From a virus, in the IMG/VR virus record IMGVR_UViG_3300037493_001765, positions 1 through 42,109 of that record: a DNA stretch of 42,109 nt; one strand, written 5' to 3'. A program made the translations under genes and the position numbers. The notes beneath the pieces were generated by a model, which made no database searches, was not told the DNA's origin, and saw only the letters and a list, made by a program, of their open reading frames with translations. Positions 1 through 42,109 of this stretch are shown here, one piece after another (within the stretch, counting starts at the first letter, position 1; each line of letters opens with the position of its first letter).

Positions 1-3000
1 TTTCACCTCTTTCAAAAGGATCTAATAAAGCTTTTTTCATTAAAGCCATATCTGCATTTCCTTGTTCTCCTTTGCCGTAAAACTTATAAAGCATACCAGC
101 AAAATCTTCAGCATTAGCTGGAATAAAAAATTCAAAGTTACCTTTCTTTCTACCAAGAAGTGAAGCTTTAGCAGCGGAGATTTCTTCGCCAGCAGGAATT
201 CCTTTTTTGCGTTCTATCATTTTGCTAAGATCTTCAGCAAGGTTTTTAGAAGCCATTGTATTAGTTAATTCACCTTCCATTTTATTCTCAACAAGAGTTT
301 CCCAAGCGTTTTTACCTGTAGTCCAATCTAATACATTTTCAAGCAGTTCTTTTGGGTTTGCGCCTATCCCTACATTCATTAATTGCGGTATACCAAGTTT
401 TAAAAAAAACGCATCTTTTGGAGTCCTGCCTAATAGAGTATCTCCAAGCAATTGACCTTGTTTATTTCCCATTAAGCTCTGATAAGAATCTACTAGTTCT
501 TTTGATTTACTTTCGTTTAAAGTGCCATCTAATAAATGTTTCAACACCTCCGCTGCAAATTCAGCTTTAGCCATTAGGTGTTCATTTTTAGGCTCTCCTA
601 ATATGTCTGAATTGCTTATATCCACCCATCTTTCAGAGGAGTAACTTCTAGCGCCGAGGCCATCGTTGTTTAACAATATAACCCCAAAGTTTCTAGCAAA
701 AACTTCCCTATCTTTTGGATCGGTTAATTTTGCAATTTTTTCTGCTGCTAAATCTAAAACTATATTTATAAATCGGCTTTTAAGGTTTAAATCAACAATA
801 GCTTCTTGCCTACCTTCTATCTGATTCAGAATTATGTCTTTTTTTAGCGCAGAATCAACACCTGGTAAACGACTAGTGGAGTCAGCCATTCTTAAGTATT
901 CGGATAAGTTTTTCTTTATAGTTATACCTTTTCCTTTTACATTAGCCTTTTCAGCGTCTGCGAACCATTCTTCAAATCTATTGTTTAATTTTTCGCTTAT
1001 ATCTGAATTTTTATTACCAAATTCCACACCTTTTACCACGTCTTTTTCAAAATTAGCTCTACTGAACTCGTATTTTTTATTTTTGCTTTTTCTTCCTGTA
1101 TGAGAACCTAGTTGCGATAAAACACTATTGTCCACTCTCGCACTATTAGCAAGTGTTAATTCTTTAAGTCCTTCAGGAGTTCCTTTTAGTAAGTCTTTTA
1201 AAAAGGTATGATATTCTGTAATTCTTTCTGGCGATAGATTTTCTATGTCTACAAATTCATTAAGGTCAATCTCTTTTGGATCAACACCTTTCTCAATTAA
1301 TTTTTGTCTTGTATCAGAATTAACTTTTGCATTTGCAATCACTGTACTAAGATTTTTTCTATAGTCTCTGTCAGCAAAAGCTGCAGATTTACCATAGTAT
1401 ACCATACCTAGTGGGTCTTTTATAATTTCCTCCGATGGTTTTAGCTTACCATCATTGTCATAAATAACCGATCTTAATCTATTTCTAGCCTCGTCTTTTG
1501 TTAAATCTAATTGTATTGCAACTTCCTCTATTATTTTAGAAGCCATTGAGTTTTGCACATCACGATCTATTTGTTTCGCAATAACAGCGACATAGTTATC
1601 AACCAACCCTGTACTAAGGTCTTCTTGTCTAGACTCTATTTGCTTACGCATTTCTTCTTTACCCAATACATTCATTGTGGCATCAAAACCTAATTCAGTA
1701 GCTAAAGCTTCTATAATAGATCTTCTCTTACCATCAATACGTTGTGTTCCGTCTCCTAAGAAATATTTTCTCCATTCAGCTAGGCTAACATTTTTCTTTG
1801 TGAAAATTGGATTTCCAGCTGCTGTTTTCTCTCTTGCTTGCTTACCAGTCGCTTTGTCTATAAAAGGCTCCTTAAACTCAGCAAAACGCTTGTTCACGGC
1901 CGACTGACTTATATAGTCCTTCAACAATGGAAATGCGTTATCGATAAAAGCTTCATATTCGGGTGTGGCTTTCTTATTATCGATTATATTACCTGCATGT
2001 TTAGAAAGATCATTAAACAATGAATTTTTAAAGTCTTCAGCTAAGCTTTCTTTAAAATTAAAATCTTTTTCAAATGATTTATCTGGAGCTCCTAAATGTT
2101 GCTCAACTAACTTAGGCGATCTTGCTTTAATAGTTTCAACTCTACCGTCAGGATATGTTATTCTAGCTTTATCGCTTTCAAGCATTGCTACTTTAGCTTT
2201 CCCCCCGTCTTTTAATGGAACTGTACCAATCGCTTTTGCGTCTAAGTTTTCTAGCTTTTGTGAATTTAAAAGCTTATTTGCGTCTTTATTTACTTTTTCT
2301 ACAAATTCAGCAGGTAATTGCAATATTGTTTCTGCTTTCTTTTGAGATACCCTTGTGTATTGTTCTGGCGAGGATGTGTCTATATATCCTTCAGCACTAC
2401 TACTAGATGCTCCACTAATCCCAACGCTCTCTTCTAATTTATCGATGTTCTGTACATCTTCTATTGAGAATGTATTAAAAGAATCAGCAAACTCAGATTT
2501 TTGTAAAGTTTGTAATATACGTTTAGGCAAGTTACCAAATATATAAGAAGTTAGCTGAGCTTGCTCGGTTTCTCCTTTAGCCATTTTAATATACTTATCA
2601 ATTGTACTAGAGTCACTTCCTGCAGAAGTTCTATCTTGTATACGTAATTCTTTTGCTTTACTGTTTATTGCTTCTCTACTAGGGTTTTCTGTTTTTATAA
2701 ATTCAATAAGAGATTGCCCTTTTGCCCATCCTTCTGTTAGATTTGGTATTCCAAATGTAGCTTGACCAGAATCAGTAGTTAACGAATCTACAATATCCTG
2801 AATACGATCTCGAGACATTGTTATACCTTTCGCAGTAAGATAGCCTTCAACTTGTTTTCTAACAAGCGGCTCCATTTCATAACCAACCATAAGTCCAGCT
2901 ATTTCCGGAGAGCTGCCTGACTTTATAGCTTCTTCGTAAGCACGGGTTGCTTTTGAAAATATATCTTTTTTCTCTGCTTCGTTTATTCCTTTTGAAGCAA

Positions 3001-6000
3001 AACTTTCTATATTGCTTAATTCTGTTGCTTCTGTAGCTATTTCTTTACCGGTTTCAATGTTTATCATCTTCTCCCCGTCAATAGCTATATTCTTAAACTT
3101 TTCAAATTTATTTTTTAACGCACTAGAACTTTTACCTTCTGCTGCATTACCTAAATCATATAAGAATTCTAATAAGTCAGATGCTCTATTAAGATTTTTT
3201 TCGCCTATTTCTAATGGCTTGTTTGAAGTTAAGTCTAATCCTATTTTATTACCCAATTCACCAACAGCTCTTTTAAGTGTAGGTAAAAACTTATTGTTTA
3301 ATAAAACGTCTCTATATTTAGGATTCTGCAAAAATTCCATAACATTCATTACGTACTCTTCTGCAGGTTGATTTTTACCGTAAGCCTCATTAATAGCCTC
3401 CTCAAATGTTTTACCATCAGCAAATGTTTTTCCAGCAAATGCAGATTCAACTTTTGACTTTATAGTTTCTTTAAACTTTTCAGCTATTTCAGGATTATTT
3501 TTAAAAGCAGCTTTCATCATTGAGTGACCAACTTCATGCCCTAATACTCCTTTTTTATATTGGTTTATATCAATGTTTACTGTATTAGTGGCTGGATCAA
3601 ACTCAGCTTTATTTCCTTCCGCAATTTTTGTATTACCTTCTGCGTCAGTTTTTCCGTCTAATATATTTAAACTTACACCATCAGCGAAAGCTCCTTTAGC
3701 AGAAGCGGCTTTAAAGTCTCTTTCTATATTTCTTTTTACAGCAACAATATGAGCTTGTCCTTTAGCTACTTGATCTTCTGCTTCAATTAATTCTTTTTCG
3801 TTTAATTTTCCGCTTTCAATTTGAGCTTGAGCTTCAGTCATCTGCTTTTTTAAAGACCCAATATCCTGATTGATAAAATTTCTATCAGCTACCTGTATTT
3901 CTCTATCTAATAAAGCTAAAGTATTTTTCTTTTGCTCAATTTTTCTTTTATTAGTGGGATTGTTTTCTTCTTGCAAGGTAACAATTTCATCATAAGTCTT
4001 ATCGAACATGGATCGTTTTTCAGACATAGATTTGAAATCATTGCCCTTCAAGTTATGTGTTCCAATAAGAGCACCAACAAAACCATTAACTACTAATCTA
4101 TCTGCCCATTCTGAATCTTCACCATATAACTCTTCCATCGAAGTTTTAAAAGATTCTTTACCTCTTAAATCTTTATATGCTGCTTCAGTAAATGCGGCGG
4201 CTTCAGAACCCGCAACCATACCAGGACCAGCTAATACAACTTTTTCTATAATAGGGTTAAACCTAGCCATAGCTCCGGCAAATCTAAAAGGTATAAGCTT
4301 ATTCATAGCGGCTCCTCCTAAGTAAAAACCGGCTCCGCCTCCTGTTTGAGATTCTCCAAGTGTTGCTGTTTTAAAAGTAACCTCTTCTTTTAGAGCGTTA
4401 AAGCCTAAATGCAGCAATCTATCAGTAAGAAGTTTTGATCGCCCTAAAGCAGCTACTCTAGCTCCAAATCCAGTTGTTCCAAGTATACCTCCGGTTACTG
4501 CATTTACGGCAGCAAACTTAACTAATTCAGGTACAAAAGATCCAACACCCTCTGCCACTTTCATTGATGTGCTTCTTTTAAAAGCTTCTTTTTGTTCTTT
4601 GGACGGAGCTATACCTACATCTGTAAATACTTTTTCTATTTCGTCTAACTGTACTCTTTCCGTATCTTTCTCACCAAATGTTTTGTTAAGCTTTCTTCTA
4701 TTTTCCTCACCAATTGTGGCATCGAGAGCAGCTTCCGCAAATCTATCAATTGTTCCTAAAGCTGTTTGTTTAAGGCTTTTAGGATCTATATTCATTAAAT
4801 AAGAAGTTTTGTAAGCCTCTCTTTCTACACCTAATCTTGATTGCTCTTTAACAAGGTCTTTTAAATAAGGTACCATTGCTCCTTTTAATTGAGCTCCTTT
4901 GCCAGTTGGGGTTGCGTCTGCAAACGCTTGTTCTATTGAACGGTTATAGTTATCGCTGTCTAAAAATGGTATTACATCTTTTAATTTAACCCCAGTAAAA
5001 GTATTAGTTCCTGGTTTAAATTTATATCCTCTAGCTGCTAATGAATTACGTAATACAATGTCATTAGGGTTTAAATCGTATGTAGCGTTTACTCTTCTAT
5101 TGTAATTATTATATTTATTAATATGTGTAAAATAACCTCGCTCTAAAGATTCCATATCTTGATCTTTATGTAAAGCTTTCATCGACTTAATCTCGGCTTC
5201 ACGATCTGACATTGTTCCAGTCTCGCCGGTATTTTTTCTATTATCTACTTCTGCTTTGGATAATCTACGTCCGGTTTTATTATCAAACATGTACGAGTAA
5301 TCAGTGTCGTATTTTTTTAATTGGGCATCAAGGGTACCTCCTAGTTTTTCAAGATCTAAAGCGGCTTTATTTCTCTTTTCATAAGGAGCATTAGCATCAT
5401 CCATTATTTTTTGTAATGCACGCGCTGTTTTTATATTACCAGAGATAGCTTGTTCCATTGGATCAATTTCACTGATATGTTGACTAATACCCGCCTTTAA
5501 TATTGGTACGTAATTGCCTCTTTCGCGCTCTTGCTTAACAAATAAATTGTCTTCTATTTTTTTGTCTTTTTTTTCTTGTGCTATACGCGTTTTAACTACA
5601 TCCTGTACCATCATGTCAACAAAGTAATCATCAACTCTTTCGTTAGGATGCAATTGTTTAAAATTAGAAACCGCGCGGTCTCTTAATTTAGCCACAATGT
5701 CCGGGTTAGATAGCAATTCCTCTTGCGTATCTAAATTTTCTTTTTGAGATATAGGTTCACCATATTCTGCGCCAAAAAAATCATCACGCATTTGGTATAC
5801 TTCATTAGAATCAATTATATCTGTAACAAAGTGTTTAAAGCCAGGAATTCTTTCTTCTCCTGGCTGCATTACTTTTTCAGTTATAGTTCTTTCTACTGGC
5901 TCTTCGTCAACAAACTTTTTATTAGGATATATTTTTTTCTCTTCTTGTCTTTTTATTTTTTTCTCTAATACACCACCTAAGCTAACTTCAGGTACACCTG

Positions 6001-6175
6001 TAAATTTTCTTTGTCTTGGGACTTCAATTGTTTTAACATCTGGAGCGTTCTTTAATAAACGATCCAAAAACGCTTTATCATTTTCACCGTCCTCTTGTTT
6101 GATGATTTTAGGGCTAACGGATTCTTTTGCTTTGCGTTTTTTTTCTAGTTCTTGTTTCGTTAAAAATGGAGTCAT
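1..6175 (-). CDS. Giant internal/ejection-type virion protein with HEVGH metallopeptidase motif (3' end off window)
   Basis: Open frame from ATG at 6175 to the left edge, at least 2058 codons with no stop; the C-terminus lies outside the window. The N-terminus is highly charged. Residues about 539-590 form a hydrophobic Gly/Ala-rich stretch (SFVPELVKFAAVNAVTGG) that could insert in membrane. Residues 880-884 read HEVGH in the context GVLGHEVGHSMMKAAF, the HExxH zinc-binding motif of zincin metallopeptidases; a following EE in PAEEYVMNVMEF may hold a third ligand. Long helical, lysine/glutamate-rich segments dominate the rest. It is last in a run of internal-protein-like genes, 27 nt after the 412-aa gene. 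Size and position fit large polyvalent or ejection proteins of short-tailed phages that are delivered into the host. A virion RNA polymerase is less likely because I see no polymerase motif in the visible part. The frame is certain; the function is inferred. Confidence 0.75.
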   Translation of the reverse strand, partial: MTPFLTKQELEKKRKAKESVSPKIIKQEDGENDKAFLDRLLKNAPDVKTIEVPRQRKFTGVPEVSLGGVLEKKIKRQEEKKIYPNKKFVDEEPVERTITEKVMQPGEERIPGFKHFVTDIIDSNEVYQMRDDFFGAEYGEPISQKENLDTQEELLSNPDIVAKLRDRAVSNFKQLHPNERVDDYFVDMMVQDVVKTRIAQEKKDKKIEDNLFVKQERERGNYVPILKAGISQHISEIDPMEQAISGNIKTARALQKIMDDANAPYEKRNKAALDLEKLGGTLDAQLKKYDTDYSYMFDNKTGRRLSKAEVDNRKNTGETGTMSDREAEIKSMKALHKDQDMESLERGYFTHINKYNNYNRRVNATYDLNPNDIVLRNSLAARGYKFKPGTNTFTGVKLKDVIPFLDSDNYNRSIEQAFADATPTGKGAQLKGAMVPYLKDLVKEQSRLGVEREAYKTSYLMNIDPKSLKQTALGTIDRFAEAALDATIGEENRRKLNKTFGEKDTERVQLDEIEKVFTDVGIAPSKEQKEAFKRSTSMKVAEGVGSFVPELVKFAAVNAVTGGILGTTGFGARVAALGRSKLLTDRLLHLGFNALKEEVTFKTATLGESQTGGGAGFYLGGAAMNKLIPFRFAGAMARFNPIIEKVVLAGPGMVAGSEAAAFTEAAYKDLRGKESFKTSMEELYGEDSEWADRLVVNGFVGALIGTHNLKGNDFKSMSEKRSMFDKTYDEIVTLQEENNPTNKRKIEQKKNTLALLDREIQVADRNFINQDIGSLKKQMTEAQAQIESGKLNEKELIEAEDQVAKGQAHIVAVKRNIERDFKAASAKGAFADGVSLNILDGKTDAEGNTKIAEGNKAEFDPATNTVNIDINQYKKGVLGHEVGHSMMKAAFKNNPEIAEKFKETIKSKVESAFAGKTFADGKTFEEAINEAYGKNQPAEEYVMNVMEFLQNPKYRDVLLNNKFLPTLKRAVGELGNKIGLDLTSNKPLEIGEKNLNRASDLLEFLYDLGNAAEGKSSSALKNKFEKFKNIAIDGEKMINIETGKEIATEATELSNIESFASKGINEAEKKDIFSKATRAYEEAIKSGSSPEIAGLMVGYEMEPLVRKQVEGYLTAKGITMSRDRIQDIVDSLTTDSGQATFGIPNLTEGWAKGQSLIEFIKTENPSREAINSKAKELRIQDRTSAGSDSSTIDKYIKMAKGETEQAQLTSYIFGNLPKRILQTLQKSEFADSFNTFSIEDVQNIDKLEESVGISGASSSSAEGYIDTSSPEQYTRVSQKKAETILQLPAEFVEKVNKDANKLLNSQKLENLDAKAIGTVPLKDGGKAKVAMLESDKARITYPDGRVETIKARSPKLVEQHLGAPDKSFEKDFNFKESLAEDFKNSLFNDLSKHAGNIIDNKKATPEYEAFIDNAFPLLKDYISQSAVNKRFAEFKEPFIDKATGKQAREKTAAGNPIFTKKNVSLAEWRKYFLGDGTQRIDGKRRSIIEALATELGFDATMNVLGKEEMRKQIESRQEDLSTGLVDNYVAVIAKQIDRDVQNSMASKIIEEVAIQLDLTKDEARNRLRSVIYDNDGKLKPSEEIIKDPLGMVYYGKSAAFADRDYRKNLSTVIANAKVNSDTRQKLIEKGVDPKEIDLNEFVDIENLSPERITEYHTFLKDLLKGTPEGLKELTLANSARVDNSVLSQLGSHTGRKSKNKKYEFSRANFEKDVVKGVEFGNKNSDISEKLNNRFEEWFADAEKANVKGKGITIKKNLSEYLRMADSTSRLPGVDSALKKDIILNQIEGRQEAIVDLNLKSRFINIVLDLAAEKIAKLTDPKDREVFARNFGVILLNNDGLGARSYSSERWVDISNSDILGEPKNEHLMAKAEFAAEVLKHLLDGTLNESKSKELVDSYQSLMGNKQGQLLGDTLLGRTPKDAFFLKLGIPQLMNVGIGANPKELLENVLDWTTGKNAWETLVENKMEGELTNTMASKNLAEDLSKMIERKKGIPAGEEISAAKASLLGRKKGNFEFFIPANAEDFAGMLYKFYGKGEQGNADMALMKKALLDPFERGE

Positions 6176-18291: not shown

Positions 18292-19773
18292 CTAGGTTGC
18301 TTTGAACAATACGAAGTTGTTCGCTGCTTGAGTACACATAGTTCTTTCAGATAAGAAATGAACATTCATTTTATCAGAATCACTTGTGTAGTTTCCTCCA
18401 ACTGAACCAGTAACCCAAGATTTTAAACGTCTGTCATCAGCTTCAGAAGCACGGTAACGGATGTGTAAGAAAGGTCTTGAGATATTTTGTCCTAATTGTT
18501 GGTCATAAACTGTAGAAGTTCCAGCAGGAACTAACACTCCTTTAATATCATTGATAAGTCCACGAGTTGTAGAATCATTCAAATATTTCCAGTCAGTTTT
18601 GTAGAAATCATAAGCACCTCTACGGAATCCTGAGAATCCTAAGTTTAATGCCATATCTTCAGAGTTGTCAAATACACCATAAGATGTACCACCAGCTCCG
18701 TAAGAATTTTGAGCAGCTAACATATTGTCAATAGAAAGAGAAGTTGCTCTGTCTAAGAATAACATATTTTCTTCAATTGCTCCTTGTTTGTCTAACTCAG
18801 AAAGGATAGTATCAAACTCAGCAAGACCTACACCTAATGCAGCTCCAAAGTTAGGGTCATTGTAAACAAGGCCTCTTTCTTCTAATGCAGAGAATAATCC
18901 TTGAGTTCCTTCGATAGTTCCACCACCAGGGTTTTGAGAAGCGTTAGCAGCAAACGGAGTTGCAGCTTTTTCAGCCTCAACCATAGACATTTCTAAGTAG
19001 TCTTCGAAACGAATACGAGCTTCGTGCTCTGATTTTAAATACCATAAGTAACCACCAGTTCCAATCTCAGTAGTAACTTCTACCCATCCGATTTGAGCTA
19101 CGTCAGAACCGTTAACAGTATACTTGTCTCTTAAGATGATTGGTTGATTTGAGTATGGTGTGAAAGAAGCGTCAACTGAGTTTCCAGCAGCTTCAGATCC
19201 TTTTAAGTACTCAGAACCATATACGAAACAGCTAAGTGGCGCAGAACTAATAGCTCCTTGTAAAGCAGCTGTTAAGTTTGTGTTAGTGTTGTCATATACA
19301 GAAATAGCATAAGTAGTATAACCACCAGCTACAGTTCCATTATCTTTAACGTAAGCTTTGTTAGTTACGTTTCCTTTTGCAATAACAAGAGTCATACCAG
19401 CTCCTAAAATAGGTGCTTTACCATCTGCTCCTGGGTTAGGAATTTTGATAGTTTGTCCACCAGTTCCAACAGGAGAGTTAGACTCAACTGTATCATAAGC
19501 GATGTGTAATCTTCCTTGTTCTGACCAAACAACTTGGTCTGATGCCATAGGCATTTCTGCTCCTACCATACGTAAGAAACCAGAGATTGTACGATTACCG
19601 TAACGCTCTACTTCTTTCTCATATACTTCAGGTAAAAATTGTGATGCCCAATCCATATCGGATAAAGACAAATAGTTGTCACCAAATAAACCTTTTACTG
19701 GTCTTGGTGTTAAGTGTGCTAAATTCGCCAATGTTGCAGGCGCGGTCGCGAAACCTGGTACAGGTGCTGCCAT
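18292..19773 (-). CDS. Major capsid protein (HK97-fold candidate), 493 aa
   Basis: Position after portal and scaffold-like genes, length near 500 aa and composition identify this as the main shell protein. The N-terminal part (residues 29-70) holds LFGDNYLSLSDMDWASQFLP and a basic segment leading to SGFLRMVGAEMP; an extended N-arm and a long helix with Glu/Ala (EDYLEMSMVEAEKAATPFA) are compatible with HK97-fold capsid proteins, and the C-terminus is rich in beta strands (HIRYRASEADDRRLKSW). Codon and base use look less AT-rich than the neighbours, as expected for the most highly expressed virion gene. A strong hairpin follows its stop. No protease gene is visible between portal and capsid. 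The ATG at 19773 is the first in-frame start. Confidence 0.88.
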   Translation of the reverse strand: MAAPVPGFATAPATLANLAHLTPRPVKGLFGDNYLSLSDMDWASQFLPEVYEKEVERYGNRTISGFLRMVGAEMPMASDQVVWSEQGRLHIAYDTVESNSPVGTGGQTIKIPNPGADGKAPILGAGMTLVIAKGNVTNKAYVKDNGTVAGGYTTYAISVYDNTNTNLTAALQGAISSAPLSCFVYGSEYLKGSEAAGNSVDASFTPYSNQPIILRDKYTVNGSDVAQIGWVEVTTEIGTGGYLWYLKSEHEARIRFEDYLEMSMVEAEKAATPFAANASQNPGGGTIEGTQGLFSALEERGLVYNDPNFGAALGVGLAEFDTILSELDKQGAIEENMLFLDRATSLSIDNMLAAQNSYGAGGTSYGVFDNSEDMALNLGFSGFRRGAYDFYKTDWKYLNDSTTRGLINDIKGVLVPAGTSTVYDQQLGQNISRPFLHIRYRASEADDRRLKSWVTGSVGGNYTSDSDKMNVHFLSERTMCTQAANNFVLFKAT

Positions 19774-19785
19774 AATCTATTAGTT

Positions 19786-20967
19786 TTAAATTTGTTTAAA
19801 AGTTTTTATTTTTAATTTAGAATCTGAAGCCCCTGAGTCTACTGATCGTACTTGCCAGCCATTAGCTGTTTTAACATCTTGATGTACACCACGTGTGCCC
19901 ATATCAATGTTTTTAGCTTTGACTGTACTATCTTTTATTGCATCAGCTTTACCTTGCTCATAAAAGTGTTGTGCGACAGCATCCGCGTTCATAGCTGTAA
20001 ACAAGCTCTTGTGATAACCACTAGCATCTGACATTTCATTCTTTTCGTTCAAGAACTTCTTGATAAAATTATGAATATCGCTTTGTGAGTTTTTCACTTC
20101 AGCAGCATTCTTAACATTAAACCTATACTTTTTGTCTCCTACATTGAAATCAAAACCTTTGAAATCATTAGAAAAAACTTGATCTGTTTTCTGTAAAAAT
20201 GTTTGTTGTTGTTTTTCAGCTAATTTGGTAGCTTCTTCGTTCTCTTTGTTATAACGGTTAAAGAACTCAACCGCTTTTTGTTGTTCAGGAGCCAATTTAG
20301 TTCCAGCTTTAATTTCACTATAATATTGTGATTTTAAACCTTCTAAATGTTTCCTTGCTTTTTGTAATTCTTCTTTTTGAGCAATTTTCTTTTTTCTTAT
20401 TTCTCGCTCATCATCAATGTCCTCATCAAATGCAAAATTTTCTTCCATTAAGAAATCAATTTCGTCATTTTCTAAATGTGGTTTTGTATTTTGATAGTAT
20501 TCTTTTAAAAGATTGTAATTATCTAACTTACTATAATCAGTATTTAATTTAACGTAATCCTCTAATGATCCTCCGGTCTCACTCATAAAGTCTATTACTT
20601 TTTGAATGTTTTCCGGTAGCTCAATACCGTTTTGTTTACTTTCAACAATTGCCTCTCTTACTTCATCTTGTAAATTAACAACTTCAGTAGGAGTATTGTT
20701 TGGTAAAATTTCTTCAATTATTTCTTCAATAATGGGCCCTTCATTTTGAAAGGACTCTTCCCGTTGTGGTATTCCTTCATCCAACGTTTCGCTATCTCCG
20801 GCTGGTTCTGGAACATCCACTTCATTTGTTTCTTGCTCTTGAATGGCATCGGCTTGGGGTTTGTTTATTTGTCCAAAGTCTAACTTAATAGTACCGTCTT
20901 TGTCAACAGAAGCGCCGTTATTAATAACAACCTCTTCTTTTGGATCTAATTCATTGTTTTCTTCCAT
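19786..20967 (-). CDS. Scaffold-like acidic protein, 393 aa
   Basis: The N-terminal 120 residues are strongly acidic and Pro/Asn-rich (MEENNELDPKEEVVINNG, IIEEIIEEILPNN), followed by long charged helices (EIRKKKIAQKEELQKARKHL) and a basic C-terminus (SDSKLKIKTFKQI). Acidic, helical, disordered proteins with a short basic C-terminal capsid-binding segment, encoded between portal and major capsid genes, are the usual scaffolding proteins. The gene ends 12 nt before the capsid start and begins 32 nt after the portal stop. A protease domain is not evident. Scaffold assignment rests on position and composition. Confidence 0.75.
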   Translation of the reverse strand: MEENNELDPKEEVVINNGASVDKDGTIKLDFGQINKPQADAIQEQETNEVDVPEPAGDSETLDEGIPQREESFQNEGPIIEEIIEEILPNNTPTEVVNLQDEVREAIVESKQNGIELPENIQKVIDFMSETGGSLEDYVKLNTDYSKLDNYNLLKEYYQNTKPHLENDEIDFLMEENFAFDEDIDDEREIRKKKIAQKEELQKARKHLEGLKSQYYSEIKAGTKLAPEQQKAVEFFNRYNKENEEATKLAEKQQQTFLQKTDQVFSNDFKGFDFNVGDKKYRFNVKNAAEVKNSQSDIHNFIKKFLNEKNEMSDASGYHKSLFTAMNADAVAQHFYEQGKADAIKDSTVKAKNIDMGTRGVHQDVKTANGWQVRSVDSGASDSKLKIKTFKQI

Positions 20968-25644: not shown

Positions 25645-25919
25645 TACTTAGATCTTTTTTCAGCAAAGCCGGTGAATTTCTTCTCTTCTTTGTCTTCTTT
25701 TGGTCTGTCTTCTAATATACGCTCTTCTTCTTCAATTCTAGTTAGGATTTCAAAGGCATCGAATATGGCAAGTTTTTTTGTGGCAGCAGCATTTTTAAGT
25801 CTATCAGCGCTTATATCATCTCCTGAGTCTACAATCTTTTCTTGTGCTACCTTTATTAATTCCTCGACTGCTTTATGTCCAGCCAGGATTATATTCCTCT
25901 TCGTCTCCTTGATATTCAT
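25644..25919 (-). CDS. Terminase small subunit candidate, 91 aa
   Basis: Small, charged, all-helical protein encoded immediately before TerL; its TAA stop overlaps the TerL ATG by one base. Residues 10-25 (NIILAGHKAVEELIKVA) and 39-66 (ADRLKNAAATKKLAIFDAFE) form helices; the tail is Lys/Glu-rich and ends FAEKRSK. I recall near-identical proteins directly upstream of TerL in marine flavophages. Length, helical content and adjacency fit a small terminase (DNA recognition) subunit, but no clear HTH can be pointed out, so the role is inferred. The start at 25919 makes it overlap the 193-aa gene by 47 nt in a different frame; no later ATG would keep the conserved first helix. Confidence 0.7.
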   Translation of the reverse strand: MNIKETKRNIILAGHKAVEELIKVAQEKIVDSGDDISADRLKNAAATKKLAIFDAFEILTRIEEEERILEDRPKEDKEEKKFTGFAEKRSK

Positions 25920-26454
25920 ATTTAATTGTAATTAAATTGGCGGGTACTCGGTATAACCTCTGCCCTTCTATAATGAATTCATATTCCATACCAGGTTTGA
26001 ATCCAACTAAAGTTCCGTTCTCAATAATTTCATTACCGTATTTTACAATACCAATTAATGGAATTTCTTTATCGAGAGAAAACATATTTTTTGATTTTAA
26101 TGGTTTTACAAAACAGAAACCATCTAGTGCTTTCCATTTACCATTTCTTTTATAAGCATAAACTTGATCAGGTTGTACTGTGTACAAATCTTCTGTTATA
26201 AAGTTTTTACTATCTTTTTCTTTACCTTTAATATCTCTAAACCTTCTAAAAATATTGTGATGTACTATAACATCATCACCGGGTTCTATAACAGTGTCTC
26301 CAACAAATGGCACACTTAAAACTTTTCCTATGCGGTTCGTATATTCGTGATTTTGTAATTCAGTATTTAAAAGTAATTCATTACCGTTAATATTTATCTC
26401 ACCTGTTGTTCTTTTGCCATTAGGTGAGACTAAGTAGCCAAAAACACTTCTCAT
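25873..26454 (-). CDS. Possible tandem GroES-like beta-barrel protein, 193 aa
   Basis: Two successive beta-rich halves each resemble the co-chaperonin fold by eye. First half: IGKVLSVPF then IEPGDDVIVHHNIFRR and VQPDQVYAYKRNG, echoing the GroES order GxVxxVG, vGDxV, then a final strand. Second half: DGFCFVKPL, LIGIVKYGNE, ENGTLVGFKPGMEYEFII, LYRVPANLITIKYE. A T4 gp31-like or dual-barrel co-chaperonin, or an unrelated capsid protein with an SH3-like barrel, are both possible. The gene lies 2 nt after the 73-aa gene and overlaps the terminase-small candidate, within 4 kb of groES/groEL. Gene certain; fold hypothesis moderate to weak. Confidence 0.6.
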   Translation of the reverse strand: MRSVFGYLVSPNGKRTTGEININGNELLLNTELQNHEYTNRIGKVLSVPFVGDTVIEPGDDVIVHHNIFRRFRDIKGKEKDSKNFITEDLYTVQPDQVYAYKRNGKWKALDGFCFVKPLKSKNMFSLDKEIPLIGIVKYGNEIIENGTLVGFKPGMEYEFIIEGQRLYRVPANLITIKYEYQGDEEEYNPGWT

Positions 26455-26934: not shown

Positions 26935-27099
26935 TTAATTATTCTTTTTTTGTTTATATGGAAATGCCTTATTTAGCATATCTTTTCTTTCTGGACAACC
27001 GCAATCAATTTCCATTATTTTTGCGATTGTTGTAACCGCTTTTTTAATACCGGTTATTGTTGTTATTTTTTCTATTGTATCGCCTAATCCTTTATCCAT
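26935..27099 (-). CDS. Small Cys-motif protein (GLGDTIEK / DCGCPERK), 54 aa
   Basis: I chose ATG at 27099 (MDKGLGDTIEKI) over an upstream GTG at 27132, since the former starts 4 nt after the previous stop and matches the conserved beginning of a family I recall in Bacteroidetes phages. The signature is GLGDTIEKITTITGIKKAV, a helical linker, then DCGCPERKDMLNKAFPYK. Two cysteines spaced CxC next to ERK could bind metal or form a disulphide. Function unknown. It sits among small virion-module proteins. Confidence 0.72.
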   Translation of the reverse strand: MDKGLGDTIEKITTITGIKKAVTTIAKIMEIDCGCPERKDMLNKAFPYKQKKNN

Positions 27100-27103
27100 A
27101 ATA

Positions 27104-27391
27104 TTAACATTTCCATCTGCGTCTTGCAGCACATATTCTTTTATCTGGTGTTTTAGAACAATCTATATTATGCATCTCTTGTTGGCCTTTTGATCTAGCA
27201 CAGTATGAGTCTCTTCGTGATCCGCCTCCTGGTTGAGGTGCTTTTAAATCTCCACCTGTTTCCTTATTATATGCGTTTCTTCCTGCTTGCGTCATACCAG
27301 CACCCTCCTTTGCGGATAAGAAATGACGGCCTTTACCTTTAGTGGTATGTTTTAGTTTCTTAAAAGGAGAGTTTGGTTGATCGTATGCCAT
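27104..27391 (-). CDS. DUF6321-type small basic phage protein, 95 aa
   Basis: Residues about 30-70 (EGAGMTQAGRNAYNKETGGD, LKAPQPGGGSRRDSYCARSK) match the phage family in which a motif of the form GL..KGR..YN.ETGG.LK.P......R..FCAR is conserved, known as DUF6321; function is unknown. The N-terminus has NSPFKKLKHTTKGKG, a variant of the SPxK motif of the neighbouring proteins, and the C-terminus ends ICAARRRWKC. Very basic, four cysteines. The ATG overlaps the TAA of the 363-aa gene by one base (TAATG). A DNA-binding or capsid-internal role is possible. Confidence 0.8.
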   Translation of the reverse strand: MAYDQPNSPFKKLKHTTKGKGRHFLSAKEGAGMTQAGRNAYNKETGGDLKAPQPGGGSRRDSYCARSKGQQEMHNIDCSKTPDKRICAARRRWKC

Positions 27392-28482
27392 TATTTAAAG
27401 TATTTCATTTTTAAAGGTGATCTCTTAGCGAAGAATCCTTTTGCTGTTTTCTCAAGAGGAGTATCGTCTTCTGTCATTTGTGACGTTGGCGTTTTTTTCT
27501 CAACCGTAATTTCAGGACCTAATTTTTCAGCAGCTTTAACTTCAACGCTTTTTGTATTAGCCATTCCTCCAGCTGGTTCATTAGTTGCTGGATTTGTAAT
27601 CTGTGTTTTTGGTGCTTCAGAAATGTCAAATCCCTCAATAGCTTTACCCTGAGTTCTTGCATCTGATTCGCTGGTATACCCTTTTTTATTACCTACTTGA
27701 GAAGCCTGTAACACTTGCTGCCCTTTTTCGTCCAAGTTTACACCTTTTATTGTATCATGTATTGTAGTCGACTGCTGACTTTGTTTAACAGCAGCGTCTC
27801 TACTTCCTTGATAACCGGCTTGTCTAGATTCCCACATTTCTTTTTTCGCTTTAGTTTTAGCGTTATTAATGTAGTCTCTTCTTTCTTTACCAGATAATCC
27901 TTTTTCTTCAGCTTCAAGCTTAGACAATTGAATATCAGCTCTTTTCTTTTTTCTTGAGGTATGTGTTACACTTCTGTCATCCTGACGTCTCCAAAAAGAA
28001 GTCTTTGCTGAACCTTCGTTAAAAATTTTTAAAGGTTCTTTTGTTTCTGTAGGTGCTCCTTTTTCAATTTTATCCGGTTCTTGTACGGTTTTTGATTGAT
28101 ACTTTGGATCATTTGCAATTTCCTCTTTTTTCTTTTTATTATGAGCTGCTTTTTGTTCTGGAGTTCTTGATTTCCACCAAGCGTTTTCTCTTGGAACATA
28201 CTTTTCTCCTGGAACAGTTTTTGTACCACCTTTTACAACCTTATCAACACCAGGAGAAGAACTTTTTACGCTAGCTTGCCCTTTTAAAATTTTATCACCA
28301 GCACCTTCTGATTTAACTTGTTTTAAAGGTGACTTCATCATCATCTTTGCAGGTGACGGATCTCCTTTAGTAACATTGTTGCCGTATACTCCGGCTTGGC
28401 CTACATTTAATACAGGCTCTGTTGCTTTCTGCCCAAATAAGCCTTTGCTTACTCTAGCCGTAATTGGAATGTTTTTTGCCAT
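27391..28482 (-). CDS. Basic low-complexity SPxK protein, 363 aa
   Basis: Chosen start is ATG at 28482 (MAKNIPITARVSKGLFG), since the longer frame from 28566 lies inside the upstream gene and is not preceded by an initiation leader. The protein is Lys/Glu/Thr/Gln-rich and probably disordered throughout. It has SPAK at 43-46, SPLK at 51-54 with GAGD shortly after (60-63), and ends in SPLKMKYFK (355-363). A charged middle region includes KAAHNKKKKEEIAN and KEMWESRQAGYQGSRDAA. No enzymatic motif. Neighbours are other short SPxK proteins. Could be capsid-internal, DNA-binding or scaffold; not known. Confidence 0.75.
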   Translation of the reverse strand: MAKNIPITARVSKGLFGQKATEPVLNVGQAGVYGNNVTKGDPSPAKMMMKSPLKQVKSEGAGDKILKGQASVKSSSPGVDKVVKGGTKTVPGEKYVPRENAWWKSRTPEQKAAHNKKKKEEIANDPKYQSKTVQEPDKIEKGAPTETKEPLKIFNEGSAKTSFWRRQDDRSVTHTSRKKKRADIQLSKLEAEEKGLSGKERRDYINNAKTKAKKEMWESRQAGYQGSRDAAVKQSQQSTTIHDTIKGVNLDEKGQQVLQASQVGNKKGYTSESDARTQGKAIEGFDISEAPKTQITNPATNEPAGGMANTKSVEVKAAEKLGPEITVEKKTPTSQMTEDDTPLEKTAKGFFAKRSPLKMKYFK

Positions 28483-28495
28483 TTCTTTTTTTTGT

Positions 28496-28810
28496 TTAAT
28501 TATATGTTTCACTAATACCTTTACCCATAGCTCCACGAACATCAACAAATCTTGCTGCCGCATCACCAGCGCCTTGCACTAATGTGTTATTTATTTTTAA
28601 TGGAGAAGCTTTCTGAGTTATAGGTGTACATTTTTTTGTAGTACTCTCAGATCTATTAGCAGCCATTTTTTCGGCTTCTAACAAAGATACACTTTGCCCT
28701 CCAACACCTTGTCTAGGACCTGGTGCGGAAACTTCTTGAAAACCATTTTTGTTTTCTACTTTGCTAGCTTTATTTAAAGCGCCAACTGAACCTCTAATTG
28801 TAAATGCCAT
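28496..28810 (-). CDS. Small SPLK / NNTL-GAGD motif protein, 104 aa
   Basis: Begins MAFTIRGSVGALNKASK and ends with SPLKINNTLVQGAGDAAARF (residues 69-88) then VDVRGAMGKGISETYN. The segment NNTLVQGAGD is near-identical to the start of the 412-aa internal-protein candidate at 6203-7441, some 21 kb away. The first two thirds are polar and probably disordered. It lies 5 nt after the 120-aa HEKVH gene and 13 nt before the 363-aa gene. Small phage proteins with this ending recur in marine flavophages, as far as I recall. Function unknown; a virion-docking role is inferred. Confidence 0.72.
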   Translation of the reverse strand: MAFTIRGSVGALNKASKVENKNGFQEVSAPGPRQGVGGQSVSLLEAEKMAANRSESTTKKCTPITQKASPLKINNTLVQGAGDAAARFVDVRGAMGKGISETYN

Positions 28811-28815
28811 AGTCT

Positions 28816-29178
28816 TTATTTTTTATATGCTTCTTTTTCCCATTCGAAATCAGGATGTCCTTCATTCATATCTGCTCTTCTATAAACCTTAGCCGGTGAC
28901 TTTGTGTCTCTTTTCCATATAACAGAACTATCTGAGTACTGTAATCTTCCTTGTGCCATTTGGTTTAAATGAACTTTTTCGTGTTCAACAGCCTCTTTTA
29001 CTTTGCTGTCTGATAATTTATCATTTACAAATATTGTACCATCCCTATTAGCTTCTGCTTCTATGCCTGGTCCTAAATCATTCTTCTTTATTACTGGTGT
29101 TCCAAAATCTGATGCGGCGTCATGTAATCCAAACAGAACACTTTTTGGAGACATAATAAAGCCTTTTTTATTCGCCAT
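28816..29178 (-). CDS. Small HExxH metallopeptidase-like protein, 120 aa
   Basis: Start taken at ATG 29178 (MANKKGFIMSPK), because a longer frame back to 29265 lies wholly inside the 114-aa gene. Residues 66-70 are HEKVH, flanked as AVEHEKVHLNQMAQG; this is the HExxH zinc-binding motif. Glu114 or Glu116 in EWEKEAYKK near the C-terminus could be the third ligand, the spacing being that of small gluzincin-like proteins (HExxH ... E) such as DUF4157-like domains. It also carries SPAK (94-97). Active catalysis is not certain. It may act as a virion or host-wall peptidase, or be a folded structural relative. Overlaps the 114-aa gene by 11 nt. Confidence 0.72.
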   Translation of the reverse strand: MANKKGFIMSPKSVLFGLHDAASDFGTPVIKKNDLGPGIEAEANRDGTIFVNDKLSDSKVKEAVEHEKVHLNQMAQGRLQYSDSSVIWKRDTKSPAKVYRRADMNEGHPDFEWEKEAYKK

Positions 29179-29512
29179 AGTAACTATCTTCGTCTTCTGT
29201 ATAGAATTTTGGTTTTGTTTTTTCTTTAGCTGGCTTTTCTGATGAACCACCTTTAGCTTTCCCAAGCATATTCATAATTTTACCAGCTTCTCCAGCGCCT
29301 CCTGCACCTCCAGCGGCAGCAGCACCTCCACCAGCAGCGGCAGCAGCACCTCCGCCAGCAACAGCGGCTCCACCAGCAGCAGCAGCACCTCCACCCATAA
29401 GAGCAGGCAATGCAGCAGCAATTAAAGGAGCAAATTTAGCAGGACTTGTTACCGTATTAAAATTACCTGTATTCTTTAATAGATCTGACTTAGGGTTTAA
29501 TATAAAAGCCAT
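29168..29512 (-). CDS. Ala/Gly-rich low-complexity protein, 114 aa
   Basis: After a polar N-terminus with SPAK (23-26), residues about 31-78 are almost only Ala and Gly (ALPALMGGGAAAAGGAAVAG), a hydrophobic low-complexity domain encoded by GC-rich trinucleotide-like repeats. The C-terminal 35 residues are highly charged (GSSEKPAKEKTKPKFYTEDE) and end SYYGE. The Ala/Gly core could insert in membrane or act as a flexible spacer. The gene starts 1 nt after the 49-aa gene stop and overlaps the next gene by 11 nt. It is a real gene by position and start context, though composition is unusual. Function unknown. Confidence 0.7.
   Translation of the reverse strand: MAFILNPKSDLLKNTGNFNTVTSPAKFAPLIAAALPALMGGGAAAAGGAAVAGGGAAAAAGGGAAAAGGAGGAGEAGKIMNMLGKAKGGSSEKPAKEKTKPKFYTEDEDSYYGE
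29311..29392. repeat. GC-rich tandem 19-mer repeats inside the Ala/Gly gene
   Basis: The 19-mer CAGCGGCAGCAGCACCTCC occurs exactly at 29311-29329 and 29335-29353 and with one change at 29374-29392. Spacings are multiples of three (24 and 39), so the repeats encode Ala/Gly runs. Local GC is far above the surrounding AT-rich DNA. Confidence 0.75.
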
Positions 29513-29513
29513 A

Positions 29514-29663
29514 TTAGCATTTTTTCATTTTAGCAGGAGCTCTTTTAACTTTCCCGTATTCTTTCATTTGCTCAGCTTTGCCTTCTTTTTTCTCGTGCTT
29601 AGCCATTGCTGCTTTTGATTTGTATTTTTCTCCAGTAGCTTTTTCGATAACTTTCTTAGCCAT
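29514..29663 (-). CDS. Very small basic protein, 49 aa
   Basis: ATG at 29663 gives MAKKVIEKATGEKYKSKAAM followed by AKHEKKEGKAEQMKEYGK, VKRAPAKMKKC and a TAA stop at 29514-29516. It is Lys-rich (over 30 percent), ends in APAK (42-45), a variant of the SPxK motif, and a terminal Cys. The stop is 1 nt before the start of the 114-aa gene and the start is 23 nt after the winged-helix gene, so it fills the otherwise empty space between two genes. Basic and short, it could bind DNA or RNA. Supported by spacing and codon pattern only. Confidence 0.7.
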   Translation of the reverse strand: MAKKVIEKATGEKYKSKAAMAKHEKKEGKAEQMKEYGKVKRAPAKMKKC

Positions 29664-29686: not shown

Positions 29687-30127
29687 TTATCTTTCGTTGT
29701 CTTTAATCATATCATCGATAGCTTTATTAAATACTCTATCTGTATATGTTTTGTTTTTATAAAATGTACTTCTAGTTGATGTAGGTAAATCTTCTTTGCC
29801 TAATAATATATTGTATATTCTTGTTATTAATCTTTTGCTTTTCTGAGAAGTTTGATAAATGTTGTATTTCATTGTCGTTCTATTTCTAGCTCTCCATATA
29901 TCAATCCATCCTTCTTTCCTTAATCTTTCCCATCTAGCTTTATCCCAAGAATATGTATAACTTCCATCTATAAAATCATTACGTGTAAAATGCACTTTGC
30001 AATCTAAATAAATCAATAATTCCAAATCAGCATCCGTAAGATCATAAGTTTTACAAGCCCACTTGCGTGCAAGCCTATAATACTTGAATAGATTCATATC
30101 TCTTAAGTCGCCTGGTGTGATTCTCAT
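29687..30127 (-). CDS. Winged-helix-like DNA-binding protein candidate, 146 aa
   Basis: The sequence reads as helix, helix, helix, wing: TYDLTDADLELLIYL, then FTRNDFIDGSYTYSWDKARW, RLRKEGWIDIWRARN as the putative recognition and wing region, and a C-terminal helical segment KRLITRIYNILLGKEDLP. The DLTDADLELL start and basic wing resemble MarR-type winged helices; I recall relatives in marine phage genomes. Its ATG overlaps the GroES stop (ATGA, 4 nt), so it is translated together with the chaperonin pair. It may regulate late or chaperonin expression, or act on packaging. DNA binding is inferred; no direct target is known. Confidence 0.68.
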   Translation of the reverse strand: MRITPGDLRDMNLFKYYRLARKWACKTYDLTDADLELLIYLDCKVHFTRNDFIDGSYTYSWDKARWERLRKEGWIDIWRARNRTTMKYNIYQTSQKSKRLITRIYNILLGKEDLPTSTRSTFYKNKTYTDRVFNKAIDDMIKDNER

Positions 30128-30381
30128 AGCACAATTACGACATCATTGATAGTTATAACAAAATAGTGTTCTTCTTTCCAAGTAATACCGTGTCCTGCGT
30201 GTTTATCATACATAACAGTATCACCTTCTTTTAAAAAATCTATTTTATTTCCTACACTTATTACTTTACCCTTTAAGTACCTAACGTCATTGTTTTGACT
30301 TTCAGTAATTTCAAGACCTCCAATATTCTTAGGGGCCTCTTTAATTTTTTCTATAACTATAAAATGGTTTACCGCTTGCAT
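30124..30381 (-). CDS. groES: GroES-like co-chaperonin, 85 aa
   Basis: Caps the phage GroEL cavity. The start is taken at ATG 30381 (MQAVNHFIVIEKIKEAP), which overlaps the groEL stop (TAATG), giving 85 aa versus about 95 usual; nine more in-frame residues would lie inside groEL. KEAPKNIGGLEITES is the mobile loop, where IGGLEI corresponds to the hydrophobic GGIVL motif that docks to GroEL. GKVISVGNKIDFLKEGDTVM is the central barrel and the final strands are YFVITINDVVIVL. The roof hairpin between VGN and GD is much shorter than in E. coli. It ends with an ATGA overlap to the winged-helix gene. Confidence 0.9.
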   Translation of the reverse strand: MQAVNHFIVIEKIKEAPKNIGGLEITESQNNDVRYLKGKVISVGNKIDFLKEGDTVMYDKHAGHGITWKEEHYFVITINDVVIVL

Positions 30382-31973
30382 TATCCTCTCATGTTTGAAA
30401 TTATACAATCAGCCGAAGTTATTGTAGTAGCTACACTAATTGCATTTTTTAATGCAGACTTTGTAACTAATACCGGATCTATAATTCCATTTTCAACCAT
30501 ATTCTTATAACAACCACAAGTTGCATCAACACCAACACCAACCCAATCTCTATCTTCTAATTCTGGATTAGACTCAACGAACTCTTTTGGGTTTGGAGTA
30601 TCTTCATATCCAGCGTTTTGTAATATTGTGTAATAAGGTGCTTGGATAGATTTTAATAATATCTCGTAACCTGCATTATGCTGGTAAATAGTTTGAGAAG
30701 CATTTAACAAAGCTACACCACCTCCAGGAACAATACCCTCAGCTAAAGCAGCTTTTGTAGCGTGTAACGCATCATCAACTCTATCTTTCTTTTCTTTTAA
30801 TTCAACGGCAGAATCAGCTCCAACATATATAACACCAACTTTACCAGTTAGCATTGACAAACGTTGTTCTAATTTCTTTTTAATATAACCGTTCGTTTCT
30901 TTTGCAATTTTTGTCTCAACATCTTTTATTCTCTCGTCAAGAACTTCATTAACTTCTTCTATTTGCAAAACAGTCTTTTTAGAGTCTGTAACTGATTTAA
31001 TTACTTCTCCTAACACTTCTATATCAATCAAGTCTAAATCGTCTCCTAATTCTTCATTAATTACTTTAGCCCCTGTTAAGATAGCTAAGTCCTCAATTGA
31101 ATCTTGCTTGGTTGGACCAAAGCCTGGTAAATCAACGATGTTAACTTTGATGTTTCCTTTAACTTTATTCGCTAATAATGTAGCGTATGGTTGTTGTTCA
31201 ACTGAAGCTATAATTAATAAACTACGCTTTGTTTTTACAACGTGTTCTAATATTCCTTGTATTCTTCTTATGTTCGGTATTGGAGAACTAACTATTAATA
31301 CGTATGGATTATCTAGTACAGCTGTTCCTTTGTCTTTGTCAGTTATTAAATGCGATGATTTTAATCCAGACTCAAACTGAGTTCCCTCAACAAAATCAAC
31401 ATAAGTTTCATTTGTATCAGAGTCTTCCATTAATACCACGCCATTGTGCCCAACTTTCTCAAAAGCTTCTCCAATTTTATCTCCTAATTCTTTATCGTTA
31501 TTACAACTAATATAAGCAACTTGTTTTAACATATCTCCCTCAACAGGAACGCTAATGCTTTGTAAGTAAGTCATAATCTCTTCAGAACAGTTTGATATAC
31601 CTTTTCTTATATCTCTTGCTTTTTCTTCACCTTCGTAATCATTTATATTTTTCAATAAAGAATAAGCTAATACTGTAGCTGTTGTAGTACCGTCTCCGGC
31701 TTCTCTAACTGTATTTGCGGCAGCCTCTTTAATTAAAGTTGCTCCTATATTTTCGACCGGGTCTATTAAGACTACGCTTTCTGCAACGGTTACACCGTCT
31801 TTTGTTATCACCGGTCTACCCATAGCGTCCTCGTATATTACGCATTTACCAGACGCACCTAATGTGCTCTTTACTGCGTTTGCTAATTTTTCGACGCCAT
31901 TCATTATTTTGCTTTTCGCCTCGTCACCGAAGTTTAAGTCTTTTACAATTTGACTTGGTAAATTGAATTCCAT
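30381..31973 (-). CDS. groEL: Phage-encoded GroEL-like chaperonin, 530 aa
   Basis: ATP-driven folding chamber. The equatorial domain keeps ITKDGVTVAE (D59, equivalent to E. coli D52), the nucleotide loop GDGTTTATVL (93-102), and RVDDALHATKAALAEG, holding the equivalent of catalytic D398. The apical domain is recognisable (VEGTQFESGLK, KVKGNIKVNIVDLPGFG) but positions used for substrate and GroES contact differ: E. coli Y199, Y203, F204, L234 and L259 align by eye with Leu, His, Leu, Gln and Tyr. The C-terminus ends CIISNMRG without the GGM-repeat tail. Length 530 versus 548 in E. coli. It is upstream of groES, the reverse of the bacterial order. Probably folds phage capsid or tail proteins. 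Confidence 0.93.
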   Translation of the reverse strand: MEFNLPSQIVKDLNFGDEAKSKIMNGVEKLANAVKSTLGASGKCVIYEDAMGRPVITKDGVTVAESVVLIDPVENIGATLIKEAAANTVREAGDGTTTATVLAYSLLKNINDYEGEEKARDIRKGISNCSEEIMTYLQSISVPVEGDMLKQVAYISCNNDKELGDKIGEAFEKVGHNGVVLMEDSDTNETYVDFVEGTQFESGLKSSHLITDKDKGTAVLDNPYVLIVSSPIPNIRRIQGILEHVVKTKRSLLIIASVEQQPYATLLANKVKGNIKVNIVDLPGFGPTKQDSIEDLAILTGAKVINEELGDDLDLIDIEVLGEVIKSVTDSKKTVLQIEEVNEVLDERIKDVETKIAKETNGYIKKKLEQRLSMLTGKVGVIYVGADSAVELKEKKDRVDDALHATKAALAEGIVPGGGVALLNASQTIYQHNAGYEILLKSIQAPYYTILQNAGYEDTPNPKEFVESNPELEDRDWVGVGVDATCGCYKNMVENGIIDPVLVTKSALKNAISVATTITSADCIISNMRG

Positions 31974-41745: not shown

Positions 41746-42109
41746 TTATTTTTTTCTACAGCTACCTTGCGCACCTTTTTTTGTACCAGGCACGCGTTCG
41801 TAACCTGACCAGCACGCTTTAGCTGGAGACGTTATTTTTTTTCGTAAACTATAAGCAGTAACACTACCATCATTACTTTGTGTATATTTTGTTGCGGTAG
41901 GTTGCTTGCCATTAAACCTTAAATATGTTTCATCACTAGCGCCTTCCATTGCTGCAGTAATATGGGGACCTCTACGCATAGTCACAGTATCAGTAGTCTG
42001 ATTAAATTCTTCAAACTTATCTGTAGCATCTTTATACGTCTGCTTCTTTTGTTTCGCAGGGGATCCAATCCAGAATCCGTTATGGGATTTATTACCCAAC
42101 CCTTGTGGG
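41746..42109 (-). CDS. Small SPAK-motif basic protein, 5' end off window
   Basis: The frame stays open through the right edge (three further codons upstream of a TTG at 42099), so the true start is outside. Visible residues include FWIGSPAKQKKQTYKDATDK and, near the end, KKITSPAKACWSGYERVPGT followed by KKGAQGSCRKK. The CW.GY.RVPGTK...GSC ending recurs in small phage proteins that I recall from marine viruses. Two SPAK tetrapeptides link it to the small-protein set at 27-30 kb. Function unknown; basic, so nucleic-acid contact is possible. Confidence 0.72.
   Translation of the reverse strand, partial: PQGLGNKSHNGFWIGSPAKQKKQTYKDATDKFEEFNQTTDTVTMRRGPHITAAMEGASDETYLRFNGKQPTATKYTQSNDGSVTAYSLRKKITSPAKACWSGYERVPGTKKGAQGSCRKK

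Follow-up and report, generated by a model that had tools for sequence, protein, structure and literature searches.

The DNA analyzed here, referred to as the window, is the 42,109-base linear virus record IMGVR_UViG_3300037493_001765, in which nearly all genes lie on the minus strand and the G+C content is approximately 35%. A short peptide, Ser-Pro-x-Lys (SPxK, the tag), recurs in many small proteins encoded by this phage and its relatives, which are uncultured marine phages. The tag occurs far above chance, sits at fixed and conserved sites, is confined to late genes, is placed in exposed or disordered segments, and has been added to domains that lack it elsewhere. We tentatively propose that SP[ALFM]K is a short head-targeting, or docking, signal for small late or internal head proteins. 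In this lineage, many small late proteins would have acquired SP[ALFM]K, mostly with Gln, Met, Ile or Lys as the next residue, and the tag would let these proteins enter the head during assembly, in the manner of the capsid-targeting sequence (CTS) of the phage T4 internal proteins. The tag most likely binds a head-assembly partner rather than DNA, this partner most likely being the capsid protein or the scaffold, and the tagged proteins would most likely travel in the virion.

Recurrence and residue pattern of the tag

A preliminary description of this sequence had named copies of SPAK and SPLK, with the variants SPFK and APAK, in a series of small proteins, and every one of them was found in the window. 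One SPFK had been overlooked, in a 43-amino-acid (aa) open reading frame (ORF; 20718-20849) that lies in another frame of the scaffold gene. In terms of frequency, SP[ALF]K was present in 9 copies in 6 proteins, compared with 0.41 copies expected when the residues were shuffled within each protein of the complete predicted proteome (0 of 500 shuffles). For the small-protein subset the expectation was 0.08, and none of 3000 shuffles reached the observed count. The composition-matched control orders K[ALF]PS, S[ALF]PK, PS[ALF]K and SPK[ALF], with [ST] in place of S, were seen 0-1 times where approximately 0.8 were expected. Because the motif was defined after it had been seen in the window, it was retested on six relatives selected through TerL, independently of the motif; in these, 34 copies were counted against 0.77 expected, and the maximum in 300 shuffles was 4. 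With shuffles and permuted orders as controls, recurrence beyond the Ser/Pro/Lys content is confirmed and is stronger than had been stated.

The terminase and capsid proteins of the window match those of the Flavobacterium elemo phages, the Cellulophaga phi38:1-type phages and Maribacter phage Panino, and the closest match is Manatee Spring phage ctfjg026 (circular, 60.9-kb, metagenomic). On the basis of these matches, the host is probably a member of the Bacteroidota, and the relatives suggest that the hosts of the tag-rich clade are probably flavobacterial. Approximately 300 related IMG/VR loci were fetched by means of the terminase, the 104-aa protein, the 363-aa protein, the mini-metalloprotease (zincin) and the DUF6321 protein, and about a dozen multi-member protein families among them carry the tag. 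Of the 24 possible arrangements of S, P, [ALF] and K, SP[ALF]K alone stood out. It occurred in 182 unique contexts in the loci selected by the 363-aa protein and in 170 in those selected by the zincin; the next order, KSP[ALF], which overlaps the tag itself, occurred in 55 and 48 contexts, and the remaining orders in 0-16 and 0-9, respectively. Since selection by tag-bearing families favors the tag, the terminase-selected loci form the fairer set, and in these the counts were 53 for SP[ALF]K versus 1-23 for the other orders. The 80 loci selected by DUF6321, which belong mostly to other phages, showed no enrichment (17 versus 3-16), and a host-wide or composition-wide bias was rejected as the cause on this result. 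In the TerL tree the 43 tag-rich rows form one clade, the purity of which is partly selected because many rows were fetched via tagged families, and there are two separate gains (L022 and L082). Three near-complete relatives of 61-67 kb carry 26 tags in total, all of them on the late strand, and none is present in approximately 19,000 early-strand residues.

In the key copies of the tag, Ser, Pro and Lys are invariant while the flanks diverge. Position 3 is occupied by Ala, Leu, Phe, Ser or Met, and Gln, Met and Ile are enriched 4- to 8-fold at the residue after Lys. The earlier statement that the tagged proteins share little else is broadly right, but this preference after Lys indicates that the flanks are constrained.

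The preliminary description also likened the tag to the minor-groove motif SPKK and named DNA condensation among its possible roles. SPKK is known from histone H1 and sperm H2B; its turn may also be adopted by S-P-x-K, and the two share the S/T-P start and the Lys at position 4. Condensation of AT-rich DNA in the head by a turn of this SPXX/SPKK type would also suit the G+C content of the genome and the very Lys-rich composition of several tagged proteins. However, SPKK has basic residues (Lys/Arg) at both positions 3 and 4, while Lys occupied position 3 of the tag in 1 of 324 contexts compared with approximately 50 expected, and is therefore avoided. The tagged families are no more basic than other small late families (p = 0.15), and one of them, the zincin family, is slightly acidic. 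Moreover, the tag is limited to one lineage, while AT-rich phage DNA is everywhere. SPKK-like or H1-like DNA binding was rejected on the position-3 and charge tests, and a DNA-binding turn is regarded as very unlikely.

Several tags may occur in one protein, with up to five SP-x-K in 59 aa, and such multiple copies would suit avidity binding to a docking partner. Fusions of tagged segments are common, and L087 compared with L086 displays a local tandem duplication of tag-bearing segments, so the recurrence could be attributed to duplication and recombination of low-complexity linkers, i.e., to shared ancestry with no selected function. This is a most improbable account, as the flanks are unrelated between families and diverge around the invariant residues, permuted orders of the residues remain rare, and the tag has persisted both in a nested ORF and in the loop of a folded protease.

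Tagged proteins of the window

The tag is found in disordered leaders, linkers and C-termini, or in an exposed loop of the mini-zincin, and four families (363-aa, 104-aa, zincin and DUF6321) keep it at fixed sites. All features in this section are on the minus strand. The 363-aa protein (27391-28482), which is basic and mostly non-conserved, has three tags in its sequence, SPAK at 28345-28356, SPLK at 28321-28332 and a C-terminal SPLK at 27409-27420 that falls within the last nine residues, SPLKMKYFK. All 48 members of this family are tagged. The S-P-x-K of the first copy is invariant in 11 relatives, and most relatives retain K-[ST]-P-[LM]-K-x-x-YFK at the C-terminus despite divergence in the middle of the protein. 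The 104-aa protein (28496-28810) carries SPLK at 28595-28606; in an alignment of 10 sequences Ser69, Pro70 and Lys72 are invariant, and the tag is present in 51 of 51 family members.

The 120-aa mini-zincin (28816-29178; HEKVH...EWEKEAY) has SPAK at 28888-28899. His66, Glu67, His70, Glu114 and Glu116 are invariant in the alignment, and the HExxH motif and the downstream Glu ligand are conserved. In the AlphaFold model (mean predicted local distance difference test score of 80), the tag is located in a loop at residues 89-96, between strands 85-88 and 97-100; in the two homologues that clearly lack the tag, a short turn (WKGKKYSR) occupies this site. The predicted fold is similar to those of SprT- and IrrE-like phage proteins, and the matches to solved metallopeptidase structures were weak (abylysin, E 0.22, probability 0.91). 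A natural fusion of two tagged modules was observed at L293 (6530-7063), where a mini-zincin is joined via SPLKK to a DACY-type domain that is common in the strings of domains found in cyanophages.

The protein at 27104-27391 matches DUF6321 (PF19846) with 56.4 bits against a gathering cut-off of 28.5, and its SPFK (27359-27370) lies in an N-terminal leader. In the DUF6321 protein of a tagged relative, the tag-holding residues 11-48 are predicted to be disordered and the domain is predicted to be folded. The insertion of the tag in the zincin hairpin loop and in this disordered leader supports a role in docking.

The remaining tags were located in the sequence of the 114-aa Ala/Gly-rich protein (29168-29512; SPAK at 29435-29446) and at the C-terminus of the 49-aa Lys-rich protein (29514-29663), where the variant APAK (29529-29540) is APAK, TPAK or SPAK in relatives. 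The right-edge protein (41746-42108) is cut by the window end and falls outside the range stated in the preliminary description. Its first SPAK is at 42052-42063, and its second (41818-41829) stands immediately before a CWxGY domain. A full-length relative of this protein (MGKNGIGPQGLGNKSHNGFWIGSPAKQ..) sits at the start of the late strand.

Head proteins and cyanophage homologues

The 393-aa protein at 19786-20967 (minus strand) has no family match and is named scaffold because of its position between the portal and the major capsid protein. The gene of the 43-aa peptide, which is of the KSKxQ type and has its SPFK at 20745-20756, is nested in the +1 frame of this gene, on the same strand. 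Of 76 distinct scaffold genes, 48 contained a +1-frame ORF of at least 28 codons, which usually lay in the acidic N-terminal region. In 61 of the 63 pairs that could be aligned, which share ancestry and are therefore not independent, conservation over the same bases was higher in the nested protein than in the scaffold frame (means 0.77 versus 0.64); between the window and L093, for example, the values were 95% and 74%. The differences between pairs fall most often on the third positions of the nested frame. The nested ORFs encode KSKxQ-type or other basic peptides, many of which carry SPFK, TPFK or SPHK. As judged from these sequence patterns, a conserved overprinted gene, often tagged, is predicted inside the scaffold gene, and no nested gene is annotated there in the isolate records viewed. 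A KSKAQ-type 42-aa ORF (MPFKSKAQMKACYSQDNPKW..) that is out of frame in the giant structural gene of Flavobacterium phage elemoA (L004, 41135-41263) is perhaps another nested copy.

The C-terminus of the scaffold, SKLKIKTFKQI, resembles that of the 363-aa protein. This likeness was noticed post hoc; among all 9-mers of the window proteome, only those of the scaffold itself match scaffold tails better than SPLKMKYFK, and among 1016 protein C-termini the 363-aa family leads the non-scaffold proteins in likeness to the scaffold tail. Both the match between the two tails and the nested tagged peptide inside the scaffold gene support docking. Scaffold-tail mimicry as a property of all tags was not significant. 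Two other head proteins have tag-like segments. The capsid protein (18292-19773, minus strand) and its relatives have a conserved N-terminal P-x-P-x-[KQ] (HLTPRPVKGLFGDNY in the window; PAPQKQTL..NY elsewhere) that is loosely tag-like and was rejected as a relative of the tag because it is not tag-specific. The S-P-T-K of the portal (SDIIEYSPTKDAF) is a separate, apparently folded site that is present in untagged lineages, and it was not counted.

Of the three roles suggested in the preliminary description, DNA condensation is not supported, while capsid targeting and proteolytic processing both gain support from the restriction of the tag to late-strand genes, from the presence of two tagged domain types in cyanophage virion proteins, and from protease-type sites at the domain boundaries in cyanophages. 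Published virion mass spectrometry of the distant cyanophage S-CREM2 lists gp137 and gp160 (PMC10665884, Table 3), with the peptides assigned to whole proteins and not to domains. The former ends in a DUF6321 domain that is 52% identical to that of the window, and the latter carries CWxGY and DACY domains. In cyanophages (L300-L304 and L308-L387), the small Cys-containing domains CWxGY, DACY and DUF6321 form strings within longer polypeptides, and each is closely preceded by [ILV]xE, the T4 gp21 type of site. In 75 cyanophage-type proteins, [ILV]xE was found at most 14 residues upstream of CWxGY in 40 of 55 cases, of DACY in 40 of 55 and of DUF6321 in 39 of 50, with approximately 9 expected for each; for the three types pooled, this is 119 of 160 versus approximately 28 expected, and the distance is mostly 1-5 residues. 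These sequences suggest that the strings may be head proteins that are cut into domain-sized pieces by a prohead protease. In window-type phages, virtually every tagged DUF6321 protein has SPxK at the boundary of the domain. The numbers for the other two domains are small, with the exact SPxK before CWxGY in 1 of 8 and before DACY in 1 of 2, and Ser-Pro before CWxGY in 8 of 8.

Because of the boundary sites in cyanophages, the main rival to docking is that SPxK is a head-maturation cleavage site, at which a cut at or after Lys would free small basic domains, as T4 gp21 cuts at [LI]xE. The tag of DUF6321 proteins stands where cyanophages have [ILV]xE, the residue preference after Lys is strong, and a putative zinc protease is encoded in the same gene block. 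However, the scaffold, portal and capsid protein of the window, which would be the usual substrates, are without the tag, and no prohead protease was recognized by Pfam or PHROGs among the part of the proteins that was scanned, the window itself being incomplete. Cleavage would also be illogical in the nine-residue C-terminal stretch of the 363-aa protein, within the folded zincin, or at five places along a peptide of 59 aa, and we consider it rather unlikely. The homologous cyanophage proteins are in virions and could be ejected, so the tag might alternatively be a host-directed motif that, after injection, binds or is modified by a host factor. A lineage-specific tag would fit a host group, but other phages that carry DUF6321 show no enrichment and no result points to a host partner, which makes a host-directed motif quite unlikely.

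The docking signal also has evidence against it. The small late proteins of phi38:1, the elemo phages, Panino and ctfjg026 do not carry the tag, and structural proteins are annotated in some of the nearest cultured relatives that lack it. No cultured phage in the collection searched has a homologue of the 104-aa or 363-aa protein. The homology of CWxGY is short (E = 0.007), residues 5-6 of the tags outside the 363-aa C-terminus are weakly scaffold-like (26 of 500 random draws were as good), and the head-assembly partner is one that we infer. A more specific form of the docking proposal is rather less likely. A portable label of 4-5 residues, SP[ALFM]K[QMIK], would recruit any carrier, such as peptides, a zinc protease or Cys-rich basic domains, and bring it into the head through the docking site of the scaffold tail, whereas T4-like cyanophages would instead string the same domains into a polyprotein that is cut by the prohead protease.

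Neighboring genes and known systems

Other genes of the window include one for a giant late protein (2-6175, minus strand), which is truncated at the window edge to 2058 aa and has 3700-3860 aa in relatives; the fragment has a possible zinc-protease signature, HEVGH, and no Pfam match. A 193-aa GroES-like protein (25873-26454, minus strand; PHROG 13932) is encoded directly upstream of the terminase, and the window also has a phage GroEL at 30381-31973 and a GroES-sized 94-aa ORF at 30124-30408.

The T4 CTS of IPI-III and Alt is an N-terminal propeptide of approximately 10 residues that guides these proteins to the prohead and is cleaved off in gp21 processing (PMC9026906). Similar to the CTS, SPxK is a short peptide common to several unrelated small late proteins, and entry of these proteins into the prohead is conceivable by analogy, with indirect support from the homologous domains in S-CREM2 virion proteins. 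In contrast to the CTS, SPxK is located at N-termini, C-termini, linkers and loops, often in multiple copies, and no gp21-like protease was recognized. The best-supported reading is that SPxK may work like the T4 CTS; it is not filed as a member because the defining N-terminal position fails. The head propeptides of giant phages and the AXE sites of SPN3US gp245 likewise show one short motif across many head proteins of a phage, but AXE is a proven cleavage motif that is also present in the capsid and portal proteins (PMC10052503). In the phages described here these two proteins lack SPxK, and SPxK is only a candidate site. The cyanophage strings, such as S-CREM2 gp137 and gp160, have the same small Cys-containing domains in virion proteins; these are long polypeptides with [ILV]xE boundaries, whereas the window-type phages have separate small genes or short fusions after SPxK. 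The crassviruses, which are phages of Bacteroidota, store late-encoded cargo proteins in the virion, but these are large, and the available part of that report describes no shared short tag (PMC10172136). In the open-licence literature nothing relevant was found for SPAK or SPLK with phage and no papers for DUF6321, and the tag thus appears unreported there.

The small hypothetical genes beside phage terminase genes mostly have no functional handle. If the proposed docking role is true, a shared address label would allow small late proteins to be sorted by destination from sequence alone, and would tie the unannotated domains DUF6321, CWxGY, DACY and KSKxQ to the interior of the virion in marine phages generally. 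It would also provide a minimal packaging tag with which proteins could be loaded into phage heads. The tag offers a direct test of whether phages besides T4 have a portable head-entry signal.

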